Assembly: GCF_013372625.1 (NCBI RefSeq)
Contig: NZ_JABXFD010000377.1
Location: forward strand, 1-41,324
Reading direction: 5' to 3'
DNA: 41,324 bases
Origin: Actinomadura sp. BRA 177
Lineage (GTDB): Bacteria; Actinomycetota; Actinomycetes; Streptosporangiales; Streptosporangiaceae
Both the position numbers and the translations under genes were made by a program. Below the pieces are notes generated by a model, which made no database searches, was not told the DNA's origin, and saw only the letters and a program-made list of their open reading frames with translations. Shown here piece by piece: positions 5,670 to 13,664 of this stretch; the first letter of the stretch is position 1, and every line of letters begins with the position of its first letter.

Positions 5670-5698
5670 CCTGCCCTGCTCAGAACGTGCAGGGCAGG
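5670..5698. terminator. Perfect hairpin between convergent valS and P450 genes
   Basis: CCTGCCCTGC (5670-5679) and GCAGGGCAGG (5689-5698) form a perfect 10-bp stem with a 9-base loop that contains the P450 stop codon. No clear T-tract follows on either side, so it is a GC-rich bidirectional terminator of the type usual in actinomycetes rather than a textbook intrinsic one. Confidence 0.55.
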
Positions 5699-6966
5699 TG
5701 CTTGATGCCGTTGATGAAGCTGGAGAACAGCCGGTCGGGCTCGCCGGTGGCGCGGATGTCCGGGACGCGGGTGAACAGCTCGCGGAACATCACGGTGATC
5801 TCGCGGCGGGCCAGATTCGCGCCTAGGCAGAAGTGCGGGCCGGGACCGCCGAAGCCGACGTGCGGGTTGGGGGAGCGGGTGATGTCGAAGACGTCCGGGT
5901 TCTCGAAGACCGCCTCGTCCCGGTTGGCGGAGTTGTAGAACAGCAGGACCTTGTCGCCCGCGCGGTACTGGTGGCCGTTCATCTCGTGGTCGCGCGTCAG
6001 CGTCCGGCGGAACTGGATGACCGGCGTCGCCATCCGGACGATCTCCTCGACGGCGCCCGGCATGTGCGCGTCGAAGTCCTCCAGCAGCAGGGCGCGCTGC
6101 TCGGGGTTGTCGGTGAACAGCTTGAGGCCGTGCGACATCGCGTTCCGCGTCGTCTCGTTCCCGGCGACCACGAGCAGGATGAAGAACGAGCCGATCTCCT
6201 GGTCGGTCAGCCGCTCCCCGTCCACCTCGGCCGAGATCAGCGCGGACACCAGGTCGTCGCCGGGATGCCGGCGGCGCCGCCGGGCCAGCTTCATCGCCAG
6301 GTGGTTCAGCTCGTACCCGGCGACCATCACCTTGAGGAGCCCGTACAGCGCGCCGAGGCGGGTGATGCCGTCGCGGGTGTAGTCCTTGCCGCCGCTGAAC
6401 TCGGGGTCGCCGAGGCCCAGGATGATGTTCGTCCGCTCGTACACCATCGGGCGGACGGGCTCGGGGATGCCCATCATGTCGCAGATGACCTGGAGCGGGA
6501 GCCGCGCCGCGACGTCGCTGACGAAGTCGGCCGAGCCCTTGGCGATCAGGTCGTCCACGATCCGCGTCGCCGCGGCCTGCAGGTCGGTCTCCATCTTCGC
6601 CAGGACGCGGGGGGTGAACGCCCGCGACACGATCTTGCGGATCTTGGCGTGCCGCGGGTCGTCCATGTTGATCATCGACCCGAAGTACCGGGCCAGGTAC
6701 TCGGGCATGTCGGCGATGCTGTTGGAGCACGGCTCACTGCTGAAGACCTGCGGCGTCCGGCTGGCCTCGACGACGTCGGCGTGCCTGGCCAGCGCGTAGA
6801 AGCCGGGGCCCTGCTTGACGAACGGCAGCTTCAGCTCGGGGAAGAACGCGGGATGCTCGCGCTGCCGGAGCCCGGCGAACTCGGCCAGCCGCCGCTCCTG
6901 CGGCAGGGCCCAGAAGGCCAGGTCCGACACGCTCAGCCTGCCGGTCTCCGGCACCGTCGTCGTCAC
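5680..6966 (-). CDS. Cytochrome P450, CYP125/CYP124-like
   Basis: A soluble 428-residue class I P450 monooxygenase. The I-helix oxygen-activation motif is AGNETT (268-273), the K-helix ExxR is E308-R311, and the heme loop is FGGPGPHFCLG with the cysteine ligand at C380. The C-terminal NGIKHLP wording and the heme loop resemble actinobacterial CYP125/CYP124/CYP142 enzymes, which hydroxylate the side chains of sterols or methyl-branched lipids; the substrate here is inference. No ferredoxin or reductase gene is adjacent. A strong palindrome (6993-7013) just upstream of the start suggests a dedicated repressor. It is convergent with valS. Confidence 0.93.
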   Translation of the reverse strand: MTTTVPETGRLSVSDLAFWALPQERRLAEFAGLRQREHPAFFPELKLPFVKQGPGFYALARHADVVEASRTPQVFSSEPCSNSIADMPEYLARYFGSMINMDDPRHAKIRKIVSRAFTPRVLAKMETDLQAAATRIVDDLIAKGSADFVSDVAARLPLQVICDMMGIPEPVRPMVYERTNIILGLGDPEFSGGKDYTRDGITRLGALYGLLKVMVAGYELNHLAMKLARRRRRHPGDDLVSALISAEVDGERLTDQEIGSFFILLVVAGNETTRNAMSHGLKLFTDNPEQRALLLEDFDAHMPGAVEEIVRMATPVIQFRRTLTRDHEMNGHQYRAGDKVLLFYNSANRDEAVFENPDVFDITRSPNPHVGFGGPGPHFCLGANLARREITVMFRELFTRVPDIRATGEPDRLFSSFINGIKHLPCTF

Positions 6967-6992
6967 TGCGCACCGCCTCGCGTCCAGAATCT

Positions 6993-7013
6993 GGTTCGGT
7001 TTCTATCGAACCG
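6993..7013. promoter_or_regulatory. Nested palindrome upstream of the P450 gene, candidate operator
   Basis: Two overlapping inverted repeats occur 27-47 bases upstream of the P450 start: GGTTCG/CGAACC (6993-6998 and 7007-7012) and CGGTT/AACCG (6997-7001 and 7009-7013). Size and position fit a TetR-type operator. No regulator gene lies beside it, so the repressor would act in trans. Confidence 0.5.
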
Positions 7014-7040
7014 AGACACCGGCGACGCCGTCAAGGGGAA

Positions 7041-7730
7041 TCAGCCGACGCTCACGATCCTGCGCTGCAGCACCGCCCGCTCCACCGCCGCCCACGCCCC
7101 CGACGTCAGCAGGTACAACCCCGCCGCCAGCGGTACGAACGCCGCGAAGACGACCGTCCCGAACGGAATCACCCGCGCCACCGCGCCCATCGGCCCCTCG
7201 GCGGTGACCCGCCGCGACGACCACACGGCCACCGCGCCCAGCAGGACGAACAGCCCGATGAACACCAGCGACGGCGGCGAGAACAGACCTCCGCCCAGCA
7301 CGCCGATCCAGTTCTGCCCCAGCGGCGCCGCGAGCAACGTGTGCGCGAGCAGCAGATTCTGGTGTCCCGCCACGGTCGCGGACATGAACAGCCGGTACGT
7401 GACCATGAAGAACGGCACCTGCGCGAACATCGGCAGGAACCCCGCGACCGGCGTGGCGCCTTCCGCCTCGTAGAGCGCCGCCATCTCCCGCTTCAGCCGC
7501 TCGGGATTCTTCGCGTGCCTCTTTTGCAGCGCCTGGACCTTGGGCATCAGCCGCGTCCGCGCCCGCTCGCCCTTGGCCGCCGCGACCGACAGCGGAACCA
7601 GGACCAGCCGCACGGCCGCGGTGAAGAGCACGATCGCCAGCGCCGTCGCGAGGTCGCCGGCGACCGGGTGCAGGACGTCCGCCAGCCCCGTGACCAGGGC
7701 AGCGGCGATCGAAACAGGAACATCGAACAT
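7041..7730 (-). CDS. YidC/Oxa1-type membrane protein insertase
   Basis: A 229-residue polytopic protein of the YidC/Oxa1/Alb3 family, which inserts proteins into the cytoplasmic membrane. The core is present: an early membrane helix containing the groove arginine (AVRLVLVPL, around residue 41), the charged cytoplasmic hairpin (KVQALQKRHAKNPERLKREMAALY), the following helix with FLPMFAQVPFF, and further C-terminal helices. The long tail of the main actinobacterial YidC (next to rnpA/rpmH) is missing, so this is probably a second, short paralogue. DUF6412 lies 48 bases upstream on the same strand, a pairing I recall from other actinomycetes. Confidence 0.88.
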   Translation of the reverse strand: MFDVPVSIAAALVTGLADVLHPVAGDLATALAIVLFTAAVRLVLVPLSVAAAKGERARTRLMPKVQALQKRHAKNPERLKREMAALYEAEGATPVAGFLPMFAQVPFFMVTYRLFMSATVAGHQNLLLAHTLLAAPLGQNWIGVLGGGLFSPPSLVFIGLFVLLGAVAVWSSRRVTAEGPMGAVARVIPFGTVVFAAFVPLAAGLYLLTSGAWAAVERAVLQRRIVSVG

Positions 7731-7778
7731 GAGAGAACCTTCCGGAACGAGAGGAGATCGGATACGTCCCGGCCGCGC

Positions 7779-8066
7779 TCAGGCGGCCGCGATCTCCGTT
7801 CCAGGTGCTCTCGGACGGGGACGCCCCGCCGCGTCCGGATCCCGCTGCGGCAGGAAGGCGGTGCGCAACGTCCGTTCCCGCAGGGTCGTCCGCACCCGCG
7901 CCAGCGCCGCCCGCTGCCCCCGCCGCGCCGCGCCGACCCGCACGGCGGCCAGTACCAGCAGCCCCGCCACGGTGACGGCGGCGAGCACCAGCAACGCCGG
8001 CTGCCCCGGCGCCCACTCGGCCACGGCGAATCCCCGCAGCACGAGGAACACCACCAGCGACCACAC
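7779..8066 (-). CDS. DUF6412-like small membrane protein
   Basis: A 95-residue protein with two hydrophobic segments (LVVFLVLRGFAVAEWA near the start and ALLVLAAVTVAGLLVLAAVRVG in the middle), followed by an Arg-rich cytoplasmic tail containing RTAFLPQRDPDAAGRP. This layout, next to a short YidC paralogue, matches the actinobacterial DUF6412 family, of unknown function; the family call is from memory. I chose GTG 8066 because GGAAGGG lies 8-9 bases upstream. It is probably co-transcribed with the insertase gene. Confidence 0.7.
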   Translation of the reverse strand: MWSLVVFLVLRGFAVAEWAPGQPALLVLAAVTVAGLLVLAAVRVGAARRGQRAALARVRTTLRERTLRTAFLPQRDPDAAGRPRPRAPGTEIAAA

Positions 8067-8101: not shown

Positions 8102-8260
8102 TCAGTCTGCCACCCGTCCACGTTCCGCGTCGACGGCATCCATGATCGCGAGCTTCGCCTCGACCCCGGCCGGATCGATCGGGCCGTTCTCGGTTTCGAA
8201 GGCCGCGATCAACTCTTCCAGCCGCTCTCGCTCATCGTGGTCCATGCGTTGCAGTGTCAT
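8102..8260 (-). CDS. Small acidic protein closing the MauDE-like cassette
   Basis: A 52-residue soluble protein (ATG 8260; ATG 8245 is an in-frame alternative). It is mostly helical and charged: RERLEELIAAFE, then GPIDPAGVEAKLAIMDAVDAE. I recognise no family; the sequence loosely recalls small dimeric regulators or antitoxins but no specific motif supports that. Its ATG overlaps the stop of the upstream membrane-protein gene (ATGA at 8257-8260), so translation is likely coupled and it belongs to the cassette. Confidence 0.6.
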   Translation of the reverse strand: MTLQRMDHDERERLEELIAAFETENGPIDPAGVEAKLAIMDAVDAERGRVAD

Positions 8261-8988
8261 ATGAGCAGGAGGGCGAGGGCGGAAAGAGAGATGACGGCGG
8301 TGGTGGTCTTCGTTATGGGCATTCGGGTGGCTATGGCGGCGTCTCGGTGGTCGTCTCGGGCCAGGTAGGTGAGGGTGGCGCTCAGGGCGCGGCCCAGGGC
8401 GAAGGCCGCGCCGGTGAGGAGGGTGATCAGGAGGCTCTCGTGGGCGAGAAGGAGCGCCAGGGCCAGGACGTACGGGGCCGTGGCGGGGACGTAGGTGCGG
8501 ACGCCGGTGCCTAGTTCGAAGCCGAACTGAAGGGTGCCGCGGCGCAGGTTGGTTTGGAGGACTTCGGGCGGGATCTGGCGGGCGTTCTGGGGCAGGGGGA
8601 GGTTGATCAGGCCGAATTCGCGGGCCACGCCCAGAGCGGCGACCGCCAGGATCGTCCATGTGCGGGCCGCTGGCGGGAGTGGGGCGGTGAGGCCGGAGAG
8701 CAGCCAGATCGCCGTGGCGCTCAGGGTGCCTCCGAGGAGGAGGCCGAAGGTGAAGACGGCCAGGACTTCGCCCTGCCGTACGGGGGCTCGCCAACCTGGC
8801 GAGAACAGCACGGATTCGCTGTTGCGTGTTCAAACGCTGCCCGACAGCGAGAAGCCGGCGAGCGCGCCGATGGACGACCAGCACAGGACGGTGGCGTTCA
8901 GGGCGGCCGCCGCGATCGCGAGCAGGGCGAGGGCGGCGACCGGGAGGAGCGGGTCGGTCAGGCGCCGCCGGGCGGTCAGTCCTTGCAC
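8257..8988 (-). pseudogene. Multi-spanning membrane protein (MauF-position) interrupted by an in-frame TGA
   Basis: Read from GTG 8988 this is a 243-codon membrane protein with about six hydrophobic segments. GTG 8988 overlaps the stop of the 12-cysteine protein by 13 bases. A TGA at 8832-8830 (codon 53) interrupts it right after the first helix (PLLPVAALALLAIAAAALN). The same frame then continues for 190 codons through five more helices, including FGFELGTGVRTYVPATAPY. The downstream part could start at GTG 8811, but no Shine-Dalgarno sequence precedes it. Its place beside MauE-, MauD- and MauA-like genes suggests a MauF/CcdA-like partner; that is inference from context. It may be a recent nonsense mutation or a sequence error. 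Confidence 0.65.
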
Positions 8989-9530
8989 GCCATCGCTTTA
9001 CGGCAGATGGTCTTGTACCAGTTGCCCTTCTTTGATTTCTTCCAGCCGTCGTGGCAGCGCCAGGTGACGCCCTTCTTGCATTTGCCGCAGCTCTTGGTGT
9101 AGGCCCAGAGCCAGCCGTCGTAGCCGCCGCCATAGCACTGGTTGGGGCGCAGTTTGTAGCGGCCCGGGTCGGAAACGCCGGATTTGTGGAAGCCCTTGTA
9201 CTTGCCGCTCGTCCGGCAGCACCAGCTGCACACGTAGCTCGGCCCGCAGCCGGGGGAGCAGTTGTGGTTGGCCGCGTACGAGGGGCAGCGCGGGTAAATG
9301 TCGTAGTAGCCGACCAGCTGGAAGCCGGACGACAGTGCCTCCCGGGCGGGCGGGAACACGCCGAGCGCCTTCAGCCCGGCGGTGGCGCCCGCGGCGGCGA
9401 GGCCGGTCAGGACGCTGCGCCGCACCGGCCGAAACCTCGGTTCGTCCGGCGGGACGGGACGCCGCCGGATGCGCCGGGCCCCGGCGGGACGCGGCCCGCG
9501 CAGCGGCGGGATGTCCTCCAGCTCGATCAT
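8976..9530 (-). CDS. Tat-exported 12-cysteine protein resembling methylamine dehydrogenase light chain
   Basis: A 184-residue protein with a long Arg/Pro-rich leader, a twin-arginine signal (VRRSVLTGL, RR at 37-38) and a hydrophobic stretch to about residue 60, so export folded through Tat is expected. The mature part has exactly 12 cysteines (82, 91, 95, 101, 104, 105, 132, 148, 151, 159, 176, 182), the number that forms six disulfides in MauA. The segment QCYGGGYDGWLWAYTKSCG resembles a MauA stretch of the form CY..DG..L.AY..CCG. The tryptophan that precedes that cysteine in MauA, and helps form the TTQ cofactor, has no counterpart (LRPNQC); a TWRC element could match the second one. It may therefore be a non-quinone relative. 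Start and stop overlap both neighbours. Confidence 0.65.
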   Translation of the reverse strand: MIELEDIPPLRGPRPAGARRIRRRPVPPDEPRFRPVRRSVLTGLAAAGATAGLKALGVFPPAREALSSGFQLVGYYDIYPRCPSYAANHNCSPGCGPSYVCSWCCRTSGKYKGFHKSGVSDPGRYKLRPNQCYGGGYDGWLWAYTKSCGKCKKGVTWRCHDGWKKSKKGNWYKTICRKAMACKD

Positions 9531-9982
9531 TGGACCGCCTCCAGGGTCAGCTCATGGAGGGCTTCCGGGGAGCCCACGGGCTGCGCGGCCCGCACGCGTC
9601 CGTCCGCGCCGACGAGCACGGCGAACGGGGTGGCGGGGACGCGGTAGTCGGCGAACAGGCCGTCCTGCTCGCCGGTCAGCACGGTCACGCCCGGACGGGA
9701 CGCGCCGTCCGGCGGCGGCCCCGCGAAGATCGCGTGCAGCGGCCCTTCCGCGGCGGCCAGCACGTCGGTGCAGACGCCGCAGTCGCGGTCCAGGAAGAGC
9801 AGCAGCCCCGGCCCGAGCCGGTCGAACGCGGGCGCGGGCGTGCCGGGCGCGGGGCCGAGCCCGGCCGTCCGGGGCGCCCCCTGGCCCAGCGCGTGGACCT
9901 GCCGGACGAGACCGGCGACGACCAGGGCGAGCAGCAGGATCGCGACCCACGACAGCAGCAGCGCGCTGTTCTGGAAGCTCAT
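9527..9982 (-). CDS. MauD/TlpA-like membrane-anchored thioredoxin-fold protein
   Basis: A 151-residue protein with one N-terminal membrane anchor (LLLSWVAILLLALVVAGLV, residues 8-26), a Pro/Gly linker, and an extracytoplasmic thioredoxin fold. The redox motif is C-G-V-C at 68-71 within FLDRDCGVC, and the cis-proline is in ATPFAVLV (P119). Size and layout fit MauD/TlpA proteins, which handle disulfides in exported partners. ATG 9982 has GAGGA upstream. It overlaps the MauE-like stop by ATGA (9979-9982) and the 12-cysteine gene by ATGA (9527-9530), so the three are translationally coupled. It probably oxidises or isomerises the disulfides of the 12-cysteine product. Confidence 0.82.
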   Translation of the reverse strand: MSFQNSALLLSWVAILLLALVVAGLVRQVHALGQGAPRTAGLGPAPGTPAPAFDRLGPGLLLFLDRDCGVCTDVLAAAEGPLHAIFAGPPPDGASRPGVTVLTGEQDGLFADYRVPATPFAVLVGADGRVRAAQPVGSPEALHELTLEAVQ

Positions 9983-10509
9983 CCGGCCGTCCTCCTCTCC
10001 GTGAGCAGTGCGCGGGGGAGCGTCCAGAGGAGCACCGCGAACCCCAGCCCCGCCGCGACGGCGATGAACATCTCGTATGCGGTCGAACCGGCCGGAAGGC
10101 CGTGCAGCGCGCCGGTGAGGGCGAGCAGGGCGAGCGCGGCGGCGCGTCCGGCGACCCAGCCGGTCATCGGCGTGCCGTCGCCCGCGCACCCGCACGGGAC
10201 GCCCGTCCGGGTGCGGGACACGAACGTCCCGTAGAGGGCGTAGAGGGCCAGCAGCACGGCCGCCGCCCAGGAGGCCGCACGCATCGGGCCGTCCAGCCAG
10301 CGCAGCAGCGCCGCCGCGCCGCCCAGCCCGGTCAGCGCCTCCACGGCGATCACCGTGACCGCCAGGGCGGCGGCGGACCGGCGCGGGAACACCCGGTGCG
10401 CCCGCAGCGCGGCGGCCAGCGCGCGGGGGTGCCTGACCTGGCCGACCACCGATGCCAGCAGGACCAGCGGGACCGCGACCGCGGCGATCCCGGCGAGCAG
10501 GCCGGTCAC
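9979..10509 (-). CDS. MauE/DoxX-type redox-associated membrane protein
   Basis: A 176-residue integral membrane protein with four predicted helices: residues 4-23, 46-66, 80-98 and, after the loop, 118-136, plus a hydrophobic C-terminal stretch at 147-164. The short motif PCGCAGDGTPMTGWVAGR (cysteines 106 and 108) is the CGC-type loop of MauE-family proteins, followed by the usual Arg-led helix. Members are thought to exchange electrons with a MauD-like thioredoxin. GTG 10509 overlaps the upstream gene's stop (GTGA), and its own stop overlaps the next ATG. Confidence 0.85.
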   Translation of the reverse strand: MTGLLAGIAAVAVPLVLLASVVGQVRHPRALAAALRAHRVFPRRSAAALAVTVIAVEALTGLGGAAALLRWLDGPMRAASWAAAVLLALYALYGTFVSRTRTGVPCGCAGDGTPMTGWVAGRAAALALLALTGALHGLPAGSTAYEMFIAVAAGLGFAVLLWTLPRALLTERRTAG

Positions 10510-11204
10510 CGGACCGCCTCGACCGCCAGCCCGGCGAGCCGCCGCGGGACCTCGCGCACCCGGTCCTCCTCCGGTAGCACGGTCACCAGCAGCGACTTCA
10601 GCGCGAGCAGGAAGTAGGGGCCCTGGCCCCCGACGGTGTCCTGGAACAGCTCGCCGCCCGCGATCGACGCGCCGCGCCACGACGGCAGCCGCTTCCGCGT
10701 CTGCGTGGTCAGCGCGGTGATCTCCAGGAGCCCGAGGCCCGGGACCTCCTTGACCATCTCGGCCGACTCGGGGCGCCGGGCCCGGCCGCGCGGGACGGCG
10801 GTGATGCCGTCCTCGTGCTCGGTCAGCCGGACGGTGTCGAAGAACGCCACCGCGTCCGCCGGGCGCCCGTGGTAGAGGTGCGTGAACACCGCGTGCCGGC
10901 GTCCCTCCCAGACGGCGGCGAGGACGGGGTCGCTCGTCCCGGTGTCGCCGTCGCGGGTCGCCGTCCGGCCCACCCGCAGCCGCCCGCCCTGGATGCGGAA
11001 CTCCTGCTCGAAGCGCGCGACGCCGATGTCCTCGGCCCAGGCCAGCGCGTCCGCGCGGGTACCGCTGGAGATCTCGTGCAGCCGCCCGCGGTCGGCGATC
11101 CGCGCGACCGACGTGCACGGGCGCCCGAGGTCGTGGACGCCGGTGAGCCGGACCCGCACGCCGTCGAGCGACCGGTGGGTGACCTTGCGTTCAGGCGCGC
11201 CCAT
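10506..11204 (-). CDS. Unrecognised protein heading the MauE/MauD-like cassette
   Basis: I do not recognise this 232-residue protein. It has no signal peptide or membrane helix and only one cysteine (in [14 protein letters not shown]), so it is probably cytoplasmic. It is rich in beta-like alternation ([22 protein letters not shown], then [23 protein letters not shown]). The C-terminal part has [16 protein letters not shown] and [19 protein letters not shown]. It is too short, and unlike, the beta-propeller heavy chain MauB. I chose ATG 11204, preceded by GGGGGCGGGG; GTG 11237 would add 11 residues inside a palindrome. As the first gene of the unit it may be a regulator, chaperone or substrate partner; nothing in the sequence decides this. 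Confidence 0.7.
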
Positions 11205-11239: not shown

Positions 11240-11375
11240 CAGCACCGCAGGTAACAGAGGTGACGCTACGCGTAATTCAACACTTCGGGGCCAAACCTTC
11301 CGGAAGTGGTCACGGCCCGGAACGGGTAGGGTCAACTGCCGGACTTCCCGGCAGGTACGCGCTGAGGTGGAATGC

Positions 11376-11867
11376 GTGAGCGACGTCGATGTGCTGATCC
11401 GGCGGCTCGATCCCGGGCTGCCGCTGCCCGCGTACGCGCACGCGGGCGACGCGGGCGCCGATCTGGTCGCGGCCGTGGACGTCGAGCTGCCGCCGGGGGA
11501 GCGCGCCGTCGTCCCGACCGGCATCGCGATCGCGCTGCCGGACGGCTACGCCGCTTTCATTCACCCCCGGTCCGGATTGGGCGCTAAGTTGGGAGTGACC
11601 ATAGTCAACGCACCCGGTACGGTCGACGCCGGCTATCGGGGTGAGATCAAGGTGACCCTGCTGAACACCGACCCCCGCGCCGCGGTGACGCTGCGGCGCG
11701 GAGACCGCATCGCGCAGATGGTCGTGCAGCGGGTGGAACGGGCGGTCTTCCACGAGGTCGCCGACCTTCCCGGAGCGGCGCGCGGAACCGATGGATTCGG
11801 CTCCACAGGCGGTTTCGCTGGTACGCGTGTCTTCGGGAACAATGAGCACAGTCGAGAAGGAGTGTGA
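11376..11867 (+). CDS. dut: dUTP diphosphatase (trimeric dUTPase)
   Basis: A 163-residue cytoplasmic dUTPase that hydrolyses dUTP to dUMP and diphosphate, keeping uracil out of DNA and feeding dTMP synthesis. All five trimeric-dUTPase motifs are visible: HAGDAGADL (I), [11 protein letters not shown] (II), [11 protein letters not shown] with the catalytic Asp and Tyr (III), [11 protein letters not shown] (IV) and [11 protein letters not shown] (V, the mobile C-terminal arm). The chain extends 14 residues past motif V. I chose GTG 11376 because GAGGTGG lies just upstream and the first motif sits at the expected distance. The DUF3710 gene follows after three bases, so the two are co-transcribed. 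Confidence 0.96.
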
Positions 11868-11870
11868 GTC

Positions 11871-12683
11871 GTGGCTTTTGGACGTCGCCGGCCAGCCGAG
11901 GAGCCCGAGAAGGGTCCCGAGGCGATCGAGGAGCCGGTGGAGGACGCCGAAGAGGCCCCCGCCAAGGCGGAGTCGGTCGAGGGCGGCCCGTGGGACTCCG
12001 AGGACTCCTTCCCCGAGCTGCAGCGGCTCGACTTCGGGGCCCTGCAGGTGCCGGTCGCGCCGGGGCTGGGTTTCCAGGTGAACTTCGAGGCCACCCAGGT
12101 GGACGAGGAGGGCAACCCGCTGGACGGGCGGCCCGTCGCCGTGCTGGTGCAGTACGAGGAGAGCGCCATGCAGCTCCAGGTGTTCGCCGCGCCGAAGCGC
12201 AGCGGCATCTGGGACGACGTGCGCCGTGAGACCGCCCGGGACATCACGGAGGAGGCGCAGGGCCAGACCCAGGAGGGCGAGGGCCCGTTCGGTCCCGAGC
12301 TGCTGGCGATGGTCCCGGCGGCGCTGACCGAGGAGGTCCTCGCGGAGATGCCGCCGGAGGTCCGCGAGCAGATCCCGGCCGAGTTCGTCGAGCAGGGCTG
12401 GGCGCCGCAGATCATCCGCTTCCTCGGTGTGGACGGCCCCCGCTGGTTCCTGCAGGCCGTGGTGCAGGGCGCCGCGATCGAGGACGAGGAGCAGTGGCAG
12501 GTCCTGGAGGACGTGCTGCGCGGCGTGGTCGTCGTCCGCGGCGACGCGCCGATGCCGCCCCGCGACCTGCTGGAGCTGCAGATCCCCAAGGAGTTCAGCG
12601 AGGCCGGGCAGGACGAGGACGAGGAGGCCGTGGAGACCTTCGACCCGTTCGAGCGCGGCCCGGAGATCACCGAGGTCCGCTGA
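11871..12683 (+). CDS. DUF3710 domain-containing protein
   Basis: A 270-residue protein of the actinobacterial DUF3710 family, function unknown. The N-terminal ~45 residues are charged and disordered-looking (FGRRRPAEEPEKGPEAIEEP). The conserved domain follows, with FPELQRLDFGALQVPV, the VQYEESAMQLQVFAAPK strand region, WDDVRRE, and the late segment VDGPRWFLQAVVQG with its Trp-Phe pair. There is no signal peptide. It starts at GTG 11871, three bases after dut. In many actinomycetes dut and DUF3710 are followed directly by the OB-fold and DUF3159 genes; here those are ~6.8 kb downstream. Confidence 0.93.
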   Translation: MAFGRRRPAEEPEKGPEAIEEPVEDAEEAPAKAESVEGGPWDSEDSFPELQRLDFGALQVPVAPGLGFQVNFEATQVDEEGNPLDGRPVAVLVQYEESAMQLQVFAAPKRSGIWDDVRRETARDITEEAQGQTQEGEGPFGPELLAMVPAALTEEVLAEMPPEVREQIPAEFVEQGWAPQIIRFLGVDGPRWFLQAVVQGAAIEDEEQWQVLEDVLRGVVVVRGDAPMPPRDLLELQIPKEFSEAGQDEDEEAVETFDPFERGPEITEVR

Positions 12684-12697
12684 CCCGCGGCATCCGG

Positions 12698-12743
12698 CCC
12701 GCCCGTGCCGCACGCCTTTTCGGACGTGCGGCCGGGCGGGTTT
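12698..12743 (+). terminator. Strong terminator hairpin after DUF3710
   Basis: A 16-bp stem with one bulged T (arms 12698-12714 and 12725-12740) and a 10-base loop, followed by TTT, ends the dut-DUF3710 unit. The bL37-like gene starts 62 bases further and so probably has its own promoter. Confidence 0.8.
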
Positions 12744-12805
12744 CGCCTTCCGGCGCCCCGGCCGATCCCTTGCCTTGACCGCCCGTCCGGGTGGTCAATC
12801 GGGAC

Positions 12806-12886
12806 ATGTCGAAGAAGACGCGCAAACGCCGTGCCCGCAAGCGGAGCAAGCACAACAAGGGCAAGCGGCCGAACGCCCGCCGCTAG
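12806..12886 (+). CDS. Putative large-subunit ribosomal protein bL37
   Basis: A 26-codon ORF (ATG 12806, TAG 12884-12886) encodes an extremely basic peptide, starting MSKKTRKRRARKR and ending NKGKRPNARR. Composition, length and the near-C-terminal (N)xGKRPN motif match bL37, the ~24-residue actinobacterial 50S protein known from mycobacterial ribosome structures; the usual NHGKRPN appears here as NKGKRPN. A Lys/Arg-rich peptide of this type would thread into rRNA. Its stop codon overlaps the PIG-L gene's stop tail to tail by four bases. Such genes are often missed in annotation because of their size. The assignment rests on recollection of the family, not on a search. Confidence 0.75.
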   Translation: MSKKTRKRRARKRSKHNKGKRPNARR

Positions 12887-13584
12887 CTCTCGATCATCTC
12901 GAACGTCATCGCGTGCTGGACGCCGGCGGCGCGTCCGGCCGGCTCCGCCATGCCCGTGAGGAACTCCGCGGCGTCGAAGTCCGCGCCGAGGTTCGCGAAG
13001 TAGACCTCGTGCGCGAGCAGCGAGTCGATCCCGGCCCGCAGGTGGCCGGTGACGTCCACGTAGTGCGTGGCCTGCGGCGACCCGCCGAACAGCGCGAACC
13101 GGACGCCCTGCCACGGGTCGAGGGCGAGGTCGCGGAACACCCACCGGTTGGCGGCGTCCCTGATCGCGTCCGCGACGGCGAGCCCGAGGACCCGGTGGTC
13201 GGCCATGTTGAAGCCGCCGCCGGGGAAGCCCTCCCGGAAGTTGATCGACAGGACGACCTCGGGCCGGTGCCGGCGGATCGCGGCGGCGAGCGCGCGCCGC
13301 AGCGGCAGCCCGTACTCCAGCATGCCGTCCGGCAGGTCCAGGAACTCGACGGTGCCGACGCCGACCCGCCGCGCCGCCTCGACCTGCTCGGCGCTGCGGA
13401 CGCGGCGGACCTCGCCGGGGTCCATCGAGTCGATCCCGGCCTCGCCGCGGGTGGCGAGCACCTCCGTCACCGTCTTGCCCTGCGCGGTCCACTTGGCGAT
13501 CGCCGTCGAGCACCCGTACTCCAGGTCGTCGGGGTGCGCGACGATGGCCAGGGCCCGTTCCCAGTCCTCCGGTACCTCGTCCAT
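12883..13584 (-). CDS. PIG-L family (LmbE-like) deacetylase
   Basis: A 233-residue cytoplasmic zinc hydrolase of the PIG-L/LmbE family, which includes mycothiol-pathway deacetylase MshB and mycothiol conjugate amidase Mca. The metal and catalytic motif AHPDDLEYG lies near residue 16. The third metal ligand region is NMADHRVLG. Between them are TRGEAG and a run resembling other members (VRRVRSAEQVEAARRVGVG). The substrate cannot be chosen from sequence; the short length and lack of Mca-specific features leave it open. ATG 13584 has AGGA eight bases upstream; ATG 13593 is possible. Confidence 0.9.
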   Translation of the reverse strand: MDEVPEDWERALAIVAHPDDLEYGCSTAIAKWTAQGKTVTEVLATRGEAGIDSMDPGEVRRVRSAEQVEAARRVGVGTVEFLDLPDGMLEYGLPLRRALAAAIRRHRPEVVLSINFREGFPGGGFNMADHRVLGLAVADAIRDAANRWVFRDLALDPWQGVRFALFGGSPQATHYVDVTGHLRAGIDSLLAHEVYFANLGADFDAAEFLTGMAEPAGRAAGVQHAMTFEMIES

Positions 13585-13664
13585 GCCCCTCATCCTGGCC
13601 GATCGCCGGACGGTCGACGGAAGCGGGACCATGGTCGTCAGGCAGAGAAGGGGAGTGAGAGGCC

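Follow-up and report, generated by a model that had tools for sequence, protein, structure and literature searches.

The stretch of DNA analysed here (the window) comprises 41,324 nucleotides of Actinomadura sp. BRA 177 (assembly GCF_013372625.1, contig NZ_JABXFD010000377.1). On its minus strand, from 11204 down to 8257, lie a head gene and genes for MauE, a MauD-like protein, a twin-arginine translocation (Tat)-type protein with 12 cysteines (Cys) and a polytopic membrane protein. The last of these genes is interrupted by an in-frame UGA codon, which in all likelihood is read as selenocysteine (Sec) where MauF has its invariant Cys. The features of this cassette, with window positions, are as follows:

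10506..11204, minus strand: head gene, 232 amino acids; present in 57/62 near loci
9979..10506, minus strand: mauE, membrane protein; PF07291, E=4.3e-17, 63.1 bits against a cut-off of 27; present in 58/62 near loci
9527..9982, minus strand: mauD-like gene, membrane-anchored thioredoxin-like protein with CGVC; present in 60/62 near loci
8976..9530, minus strand: 12-Cys protein with twin-arginine leader, 184 amino acids, proposed client; present in 62/62 near loci
8257..8988, minus strand: predicted Sec-mauF, 243 residues via UGA readthrough; GTG start 8986-8988, stop 8257-8259
8830..8832, minus strand: UGA codon, proposed to encode selenocysteine (residue 53); lines up with MauF's invariant Cys
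8787..8803, minus strand: hairpin of the selenocysteine insertion sequence (SECIS) type; 7-bp stem CTCGCCA/TGGCGAG, GGT loop, 33 nt after the UGA

The genes are joined by GTGA or ATGA overlaps, and the frame following the 12-Cys gene overlaps that gene by 13 bases. The 62 near loci, which include the window's own locus and count some genomes twice, come from Actinomadura, Spirillospora, Actinoallomurus, metagenome-assembled genomes, a Micromonospora and Rhizohabitans. The order of the cassette is kept across them, and the 12-Cys gene and both pieces of the membrane gene are found at every one; where the head gene, mauE or mauD is lacking, the absent gene would fall before the start of the examined stretch. 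The MauD-like protein matched the NCBIfam MauD model weakly (E=0.0048, below cut-off) and had no match in a Pfam scan. No family was found for the head protein in Pfam or NCBIfam, and the Tat models of both databases matched the 12-Cys protein below cut-off only. An earlier note on this DNA (the original prediction) had described a minus-strand cassette of six genes. Its MauE-like gene, its MauD-like gene with CGVC, its Tat-type 12-Cys gene and its head gene, whose neighbourhood it proposed to survey, are all borne out, together with the overlaps. The sixth gene is not: because the trailing 52-residue open reading frame (ORF) at 8102-8260 is present in only 3/61 other near loci, it is not a member of the cassette. 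The separate multi-spanning membrane gene of that prediction was also revised, since it forms one frame with a preceding ORF across a TGA, a feature that the prediction had missed.

This preceding ORF (8830-8988, 52 amino acids) and the membrane ORF (8257-8811) lie in the same frame and are split by the TGA at 8830-8832. The TGA is kept in 62/62 near loci, and the residues T-[RHL]-N-S that follow it are conserved; locus L042 was displayed one register off in this comparison, with the same TGA visible. A count of TGA loci from a pattern search was discarded as circular, the pattern itself containing TGA, and the independent display was used instead. Conservation of the coding type was observed on both flanks of the TGA. 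In the six codons after it, 1638 of 2948 codon differences among 54 distinct segments were synonymous, against an expectation of 22% for random single changes from one sequence. Homologues bearing Cys have one uninterrupted frame through the equivalent site. Thus, 8257-8988 is one gene, and its product is almost certainly a selenoprotein, predicted to carry selenocysteine at UGA 8830-8832. Mechanical ORF calling splits or truncates such genes. The mauF frame of L042 (Actinomadura sp. J1-007) stops early, leaving 148 residues after the TGA compared with about 190 normally, through either a frame change or a sequencing error.

The membrane protein was compared by hhalign with MauF, represented by Paracoccus, Methylobacterium and Indioceanicola, and the alignment reached 94.5% (E=7.8e-8) over 159 columns of the membrane domain. 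The UGA falls on the Cys of MauF STWSPCGYSS, and this UGA/Cys column is one of six invariant columns among 16 sequences. Reading through stops also brought up distant relatives, in which the site stands in RSTWSPUGESMLSSI or LFSPUGLSMVETI; in two of them it is Cys. Judged by this profile alignment, the membrane gene is homologous to mauF and has its UGA at MauF's invariant Cys, and the cassette therefore includes a third mau maturation protein, evidently as a selenoprotein. Public family models do not cover it: no Pfam family matched more than 3/25 near members (best E 0.01), ten proteins of the MauF type, Paracoccus MauF included, gave three weak unrelated NCBIfam matches (best E 0.011), and PDB sequences gave unrelated weak matches only. 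The window's mauF does not lie in a methylamine dehydrogenase operon; mauB and mauA are not in the cassette, and a genome search also gave no match for them (controls below cut-off). In Thermomicrobium roseum (locus L108, plasmid NC_011961.1, 8684-9349), the annotated coding sequence starts downstream of the UGA, at 8756, after the in-frame TGA in LWSPUGYSMV, and a start at 8684 yields a frame of the MauF type. The same region holds two MauA-like proteins and beta-propeller-like proteins.

The bacterial SECIS model, as given in the available part of PMC13188914, combines a 3-9-nt loop that has G in its first two positions, a stem of 4-16 bp, a spacing of 16-37 nt after the UGA and a minimum free energy of at most -7.5. 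Requiring 7 bp and a 3-nt loop in one fixed register proved too strict for the distant genes (mean 5.0/7 pairs, against 4.0 when recoded and 3.0 in Cys genes), and one subgroup has a slightly shifted GGUC loop; the model of PMC13188914 was therefore applied with the stem set at 6 bp and loops allowed from 3 to 6 nt. A hairpin was found in 41/41 distinct near, 50/58 distant TGA and 0/11 Cys sequences. After synonymous recoding as a control, it was found in 30, 17 and 9% of the near, distant TGA and Cys sequences, respectively. The stem pairs differ on both sides between groups.

A profile of 16 sequences matched 74/396 sampled Actinomycetota genomes. The site was read in 64 of the 74, with TGA in 57 and Cys only in 7, so that the UGA form occurs in 57/396 genomes. 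The ten matching genomes without a site reading comprise seven weak matches (G254, G264, G275, G329, G397, G517 and G528) and three whose match excludes the site (G338, G416 and G436). SelA was found in 55/57 TGA genomes (53 over cut-off) versus 0/7 Cys-only genomes (Fisher p=5.8e-8). In a smaller set, a strong tRNA-Sec match was obtained in 8/9 distant TGA genomes (59.7 to 84.5 bits); none was found in Cys genomes G283 and G163, nor in G416 and G338, in which the site was unread. Among 150 genomes of the window's family, strong tRNA-Sec matches (E<=1e-12, counted by eye) were present in 15/15 genomes with the 12-Cys gene versus 80/135 others (p=0.0011). The window's own genome has tRNA-Sec, SelB and SelA; a frame resembling selD was noted by eye at a distance of about 2 kb from the tRNA-Sec gene. 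For T. roseum, neither SelA nor strong tRNA-Sec was found in a search that covered the plasmid only. In three genomes (G234:C1, G443:C12 and G502:C35), the distance between selA and the TGA-containing mauF is about 2 to 5 kb. Genome G249, counted among the 57 with TGA, holds both a Cys and a TGA copy (loci L161 and L169), each adjoining its own kind of Cys-rich protein.

The protein encoded next to Sec-mauF was found to be 96% identical to its A. latina counterpart. It has 12 Cys in most of the members read, and 10 in the Actinoallomurus loci L049, L051 and L052 and in L007 and L008; the change from 12 to 10 in Actinoallomurus would fit the loss of one disulfide. The likeness to MauA drawn in the original prediction did not hold up. 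The profile search that it proposed gave no match to PF02975, hhalign of the 12-Cys family against MauA reached 11%, across 27 columns that lie in the signal region, and 29% over 63 columns when a wider MauA set was used, PDB sequences gave no match, and AlphaFold gave no usable fold, with a mean predicted local distance difference test (pLDDT) score of 36. MauA identity was thus rejected as unsupported. The prediction also held that the first tryptophan (Trp) of the tryptophan tryptophylquinone (TTQ) cofactor has no counterpart. In agreement with this, the residue four before the Cys of CY..DG, the place of the TTQ Trp in MauA by motif, is an invariant Arg, but an alignment with MauA is not established. 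No heavy chain was detected, as had been stated: PF06433 (MauB), like PF02975 (MauA), had no match in the window's genome at E<=1, although control genomes matched below cut-off only and the sensitivity of the search is therefore unproven. A PF02975 search over 64 genomes gave no match and was silent for its controls also, and hence is uninformative. The genome's second match to the 12-Cys protein (C204:1-57) was set aside as a contig end that is probably an assembly artefact, with likeness lost after about 70 bases; at the start of this contig (locus L002, G000:C204:1-70) stands the very end of the 12-Cys gene, beyond which the sequence diverges.

Beyond the near loci, several distant TGA-mauF genes adjoin genes for MauE, for MauD-like proteins and for various kinds of Cys-rich protein of the Tat type. 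The Cys-rich protein of L166 and two proteins of T. roseum are MauA-like, with Trp by eye at both TTQ-like places, and seven Trp-bearing proteins with about 20 Cys reached 92.8% against MauA, signal region included. A further set with CGH in the Cys-rich protein reached 93.1% through the leader only (39 columns) and hence was not counted. At L166 (genome G458), the MauA-like ORF ends 209 nt upstream of the TGA in mauF, and this locus is possibly a true TTQ system with Sec-MauF. Beside the distant mauF genes of L148, L176, L094, L092 and L100 lies a recurrent protein of about 145 to 170 amino acids of the HFFxxxxRxFCLYVVxG type.

We interpret the cassette as a form of the mau maturation module (MauE, MauD and MauF) that depends on selenium and serves a Tat-exported, disulfide-dense protein, with a probability of about 0.85. 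Computation supports a single gene, a UGA on the MauF Cys, a hairpin, the presence of the Sec machinery, and an exchange of Sec for Cys in step with SelA. In the proposed scheme, the UGA would encode Sec at MauF's invariant Cys with the hairpin 33 nt downstream as its SECIS element, and SelA, SelB, SelD and tRNA-Sec of the genome would supply the Sec. The light chain of methylamine dehydrogenase requires MauD and MauE; here, the client of the module would be the 12-Cys protein. The selenol of Sec-MauF may take electrons from cytosolic thioredoxin, as in a thiol conduit of the CcdA/DsbD type, and hand them through the membrane to MauD, which is thioredoxin-like, lies outside the cytoplasm and would thereby reshuffle mispaired disulfides of the exported protein, while MauE would act on the oxidising side. 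The conduit is proposed because of an SPC-type motif, common to CcdA and DsbD, and weak CcdA/DsbD signals. Arg 55, 67 and 71 follow the UGA, which by the positive-inside rule suggests a position of the Sec on the cytoplasmic face of the membrane. A structure model of Sec-MauF with Cys for Sec reached at best a pLDDT of 80.4 and a predicted template modelling score of 0.80, and two of five models were poor. Drawn from gene order and from what is known of these families, this division of labour among MauF, MauD and MauE has about an even chance of being right.

Several observations weigh against this interpretation. Among the TGA genomes, the SelA matches in G349 and G171 are partial, SelA was not found in G391 (68% complete) and G405 (73% complete), and G306 has TGA and SelA without strong tRNA-Sec. 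The association counts for SelA and tRNA-Sec ignore kinship. Around the TGA, the motif has diverged at L101, L169, L172, L173 and L174, and the TGA is read as Cys in the alignment. The hairpin is absent by the criteria used from 8/58 distant TGA genes, that of T. roseum (L108) included, and an Rfam scan of 8600-9000 found no SECIS family. The assignment of the 12-Cys protein as client rests on gene order. As for the conduit, the CcdA/DsbD family matched 1/5 proteins of the MauF type (E=2.6e-4, below cut-off), Foldseek with the Sec-MauF model gave no hit at E<=0.001, with CcdA first appearing at E=1.6, and VIA-align ranked transporters first, with CcdA at a Z of 3.6.

If the UGA were an ordinary stop, the locus would encode a 52-residue peptide coupled to a membrane protein of 184 amino acids that starts at a GTG 18 nt downstream. 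This is the split given by mechanical ORF calling, and GTG stands at that place in 57/62 loci. However, the remaining five loci have GTC (L039 and L060) or GCG (L046, L057 and L062), the six intervening codons evolve like coding sequence, homologues with Cys at the site form one continuous frame, and SelA tracks the UGA, which together make an ordinary stop very improbable. Readthrough without selenium, with Trp or another residue inserted by a suppressor or through leaky termination, would alone account for the kept frame. It is just as improbable, since relatives replace the UGA by Cys, SelA is found in UGA genomes but not in Cys-only genomes, and a SECIS-type hairpin follows the UGA but not the Cys codon.

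Other alternatives concern the exported product. The 12-Cys protein may be a subunit of an enzyme with a residue-derived, TTQ-like quinone, the cassette then being a diverged amine dehydrogenase system. The MauA-like proteins of L166 and T. roseum with their Trp pair, together with the seven-sequence Trp-bearing set, would agree with this, but the window's own 12-Cys family lacks such a MauA match and MauB was not matched in the genome (with controls below cut-off only), and we consider it unlikely. A secreted Cys-rich natural product, resembling a ribosomally synthesized and post-translationally modified peptide, is distinctly unlikely. Streptomyces clusters with MauE and MauD encode precursors of at least 8 Cys, according to the available part of PMC7794033. 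In contrast to a quickly evolving peptide precursor, however, the window's protein is conserved from genus to genus, and it has 184 amino acids and a complete twin-arginine leader.

The flanks of the cassette hold ordinary neighbours: P450, YidC-type insertase and DUF6412 genes at 5680-8066, and dUTPase, DUF3710 and PIG-L deacetylase genes at 11349-13632. The host is described as a soil actinobacterium.

If selenium-dependent maturation by the cassette is correct, it would place selenium in the mau maturation machinery and add a widespread integral-membrane selenoprotein that mechanical ORF calling has overlooked. Sec-MauF offers a handle on the chemistry of MauF, since one family has both Cys and Sec forms and the work of a single residue can therefore be compared. 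The finding also suggests that MauE, MauD and MauF work as a module for Cys-rich exported proteins in general, beyond methylamine dehydrogenase. A bolder proposal is a phylum-wide, unrecognised selenium-dependent pathway, in which a membrane-embedded Sec of MauF together with MauE and MauD would build a diverse class of disulfide-dense scaffolds for export by Tat, part of them TTQ-like and others with a different cofactor or role; it is put forward tentatively, at a little short of even odds, and if true may help explain why many Actinomycetota retain the Sec machinery. Sec-MauF appears to be new: it was not found among the matches listed in the literature searched, although an earlier report in Haft and Tolstoy 2025 is possible. 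No Mau protein is in the table of 119 prokaryotic selenoprotein families of PMC13188914, nor does any word beginning with 'Mau' appear in its text. The cassette type is partly known, because Streptomyces MauE/MauD clusters with Cys-rich precursors are in print (PMC7794033, as available in part).

How does this cassette compare with known systems? With MauF of Paracoccus, Methylobacterium and Indioceanicola, the window's protein shares the invariant Cys/Sec column, the RQ(V/I)P block and adjoining mauE and mauD genes. It differs in having Sec for Cys, a 12-Cys protein as partner and a cassette without visible mauB or mauG. Known mau genes have in common with the cassette a MauE recognised by Pfam and a MauD-like protein with CGVC, whereas the leading head gene and the weak match of MauD to its NCBIfam model set the cassette apart. 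CcdA/DsbD conduits are similar in the SPC-type motif and in weak signals, without a significant match; moreover, CcdA has two Cys, and Sec-MauF has one invariant Cys/Sec. Three candidate families of Streptomyces are reported that all have mauE, one of them having mauD as well, and for each a precursor with at least 8 Cys is predicted (PMC7794033). They have the same MauE (and in one case MauD), a Cys-rich product and no other mau genes, and are likened here by description only, the available part of that source mentioning neither MauF nor selenium. Finally, with known prokaryotic selenoproteins, as presented in the available part of PMC13188914, Sec-MauF shares the UGA, a SECIS-type hairpin and the occurrence of Sec/Cys pairs.

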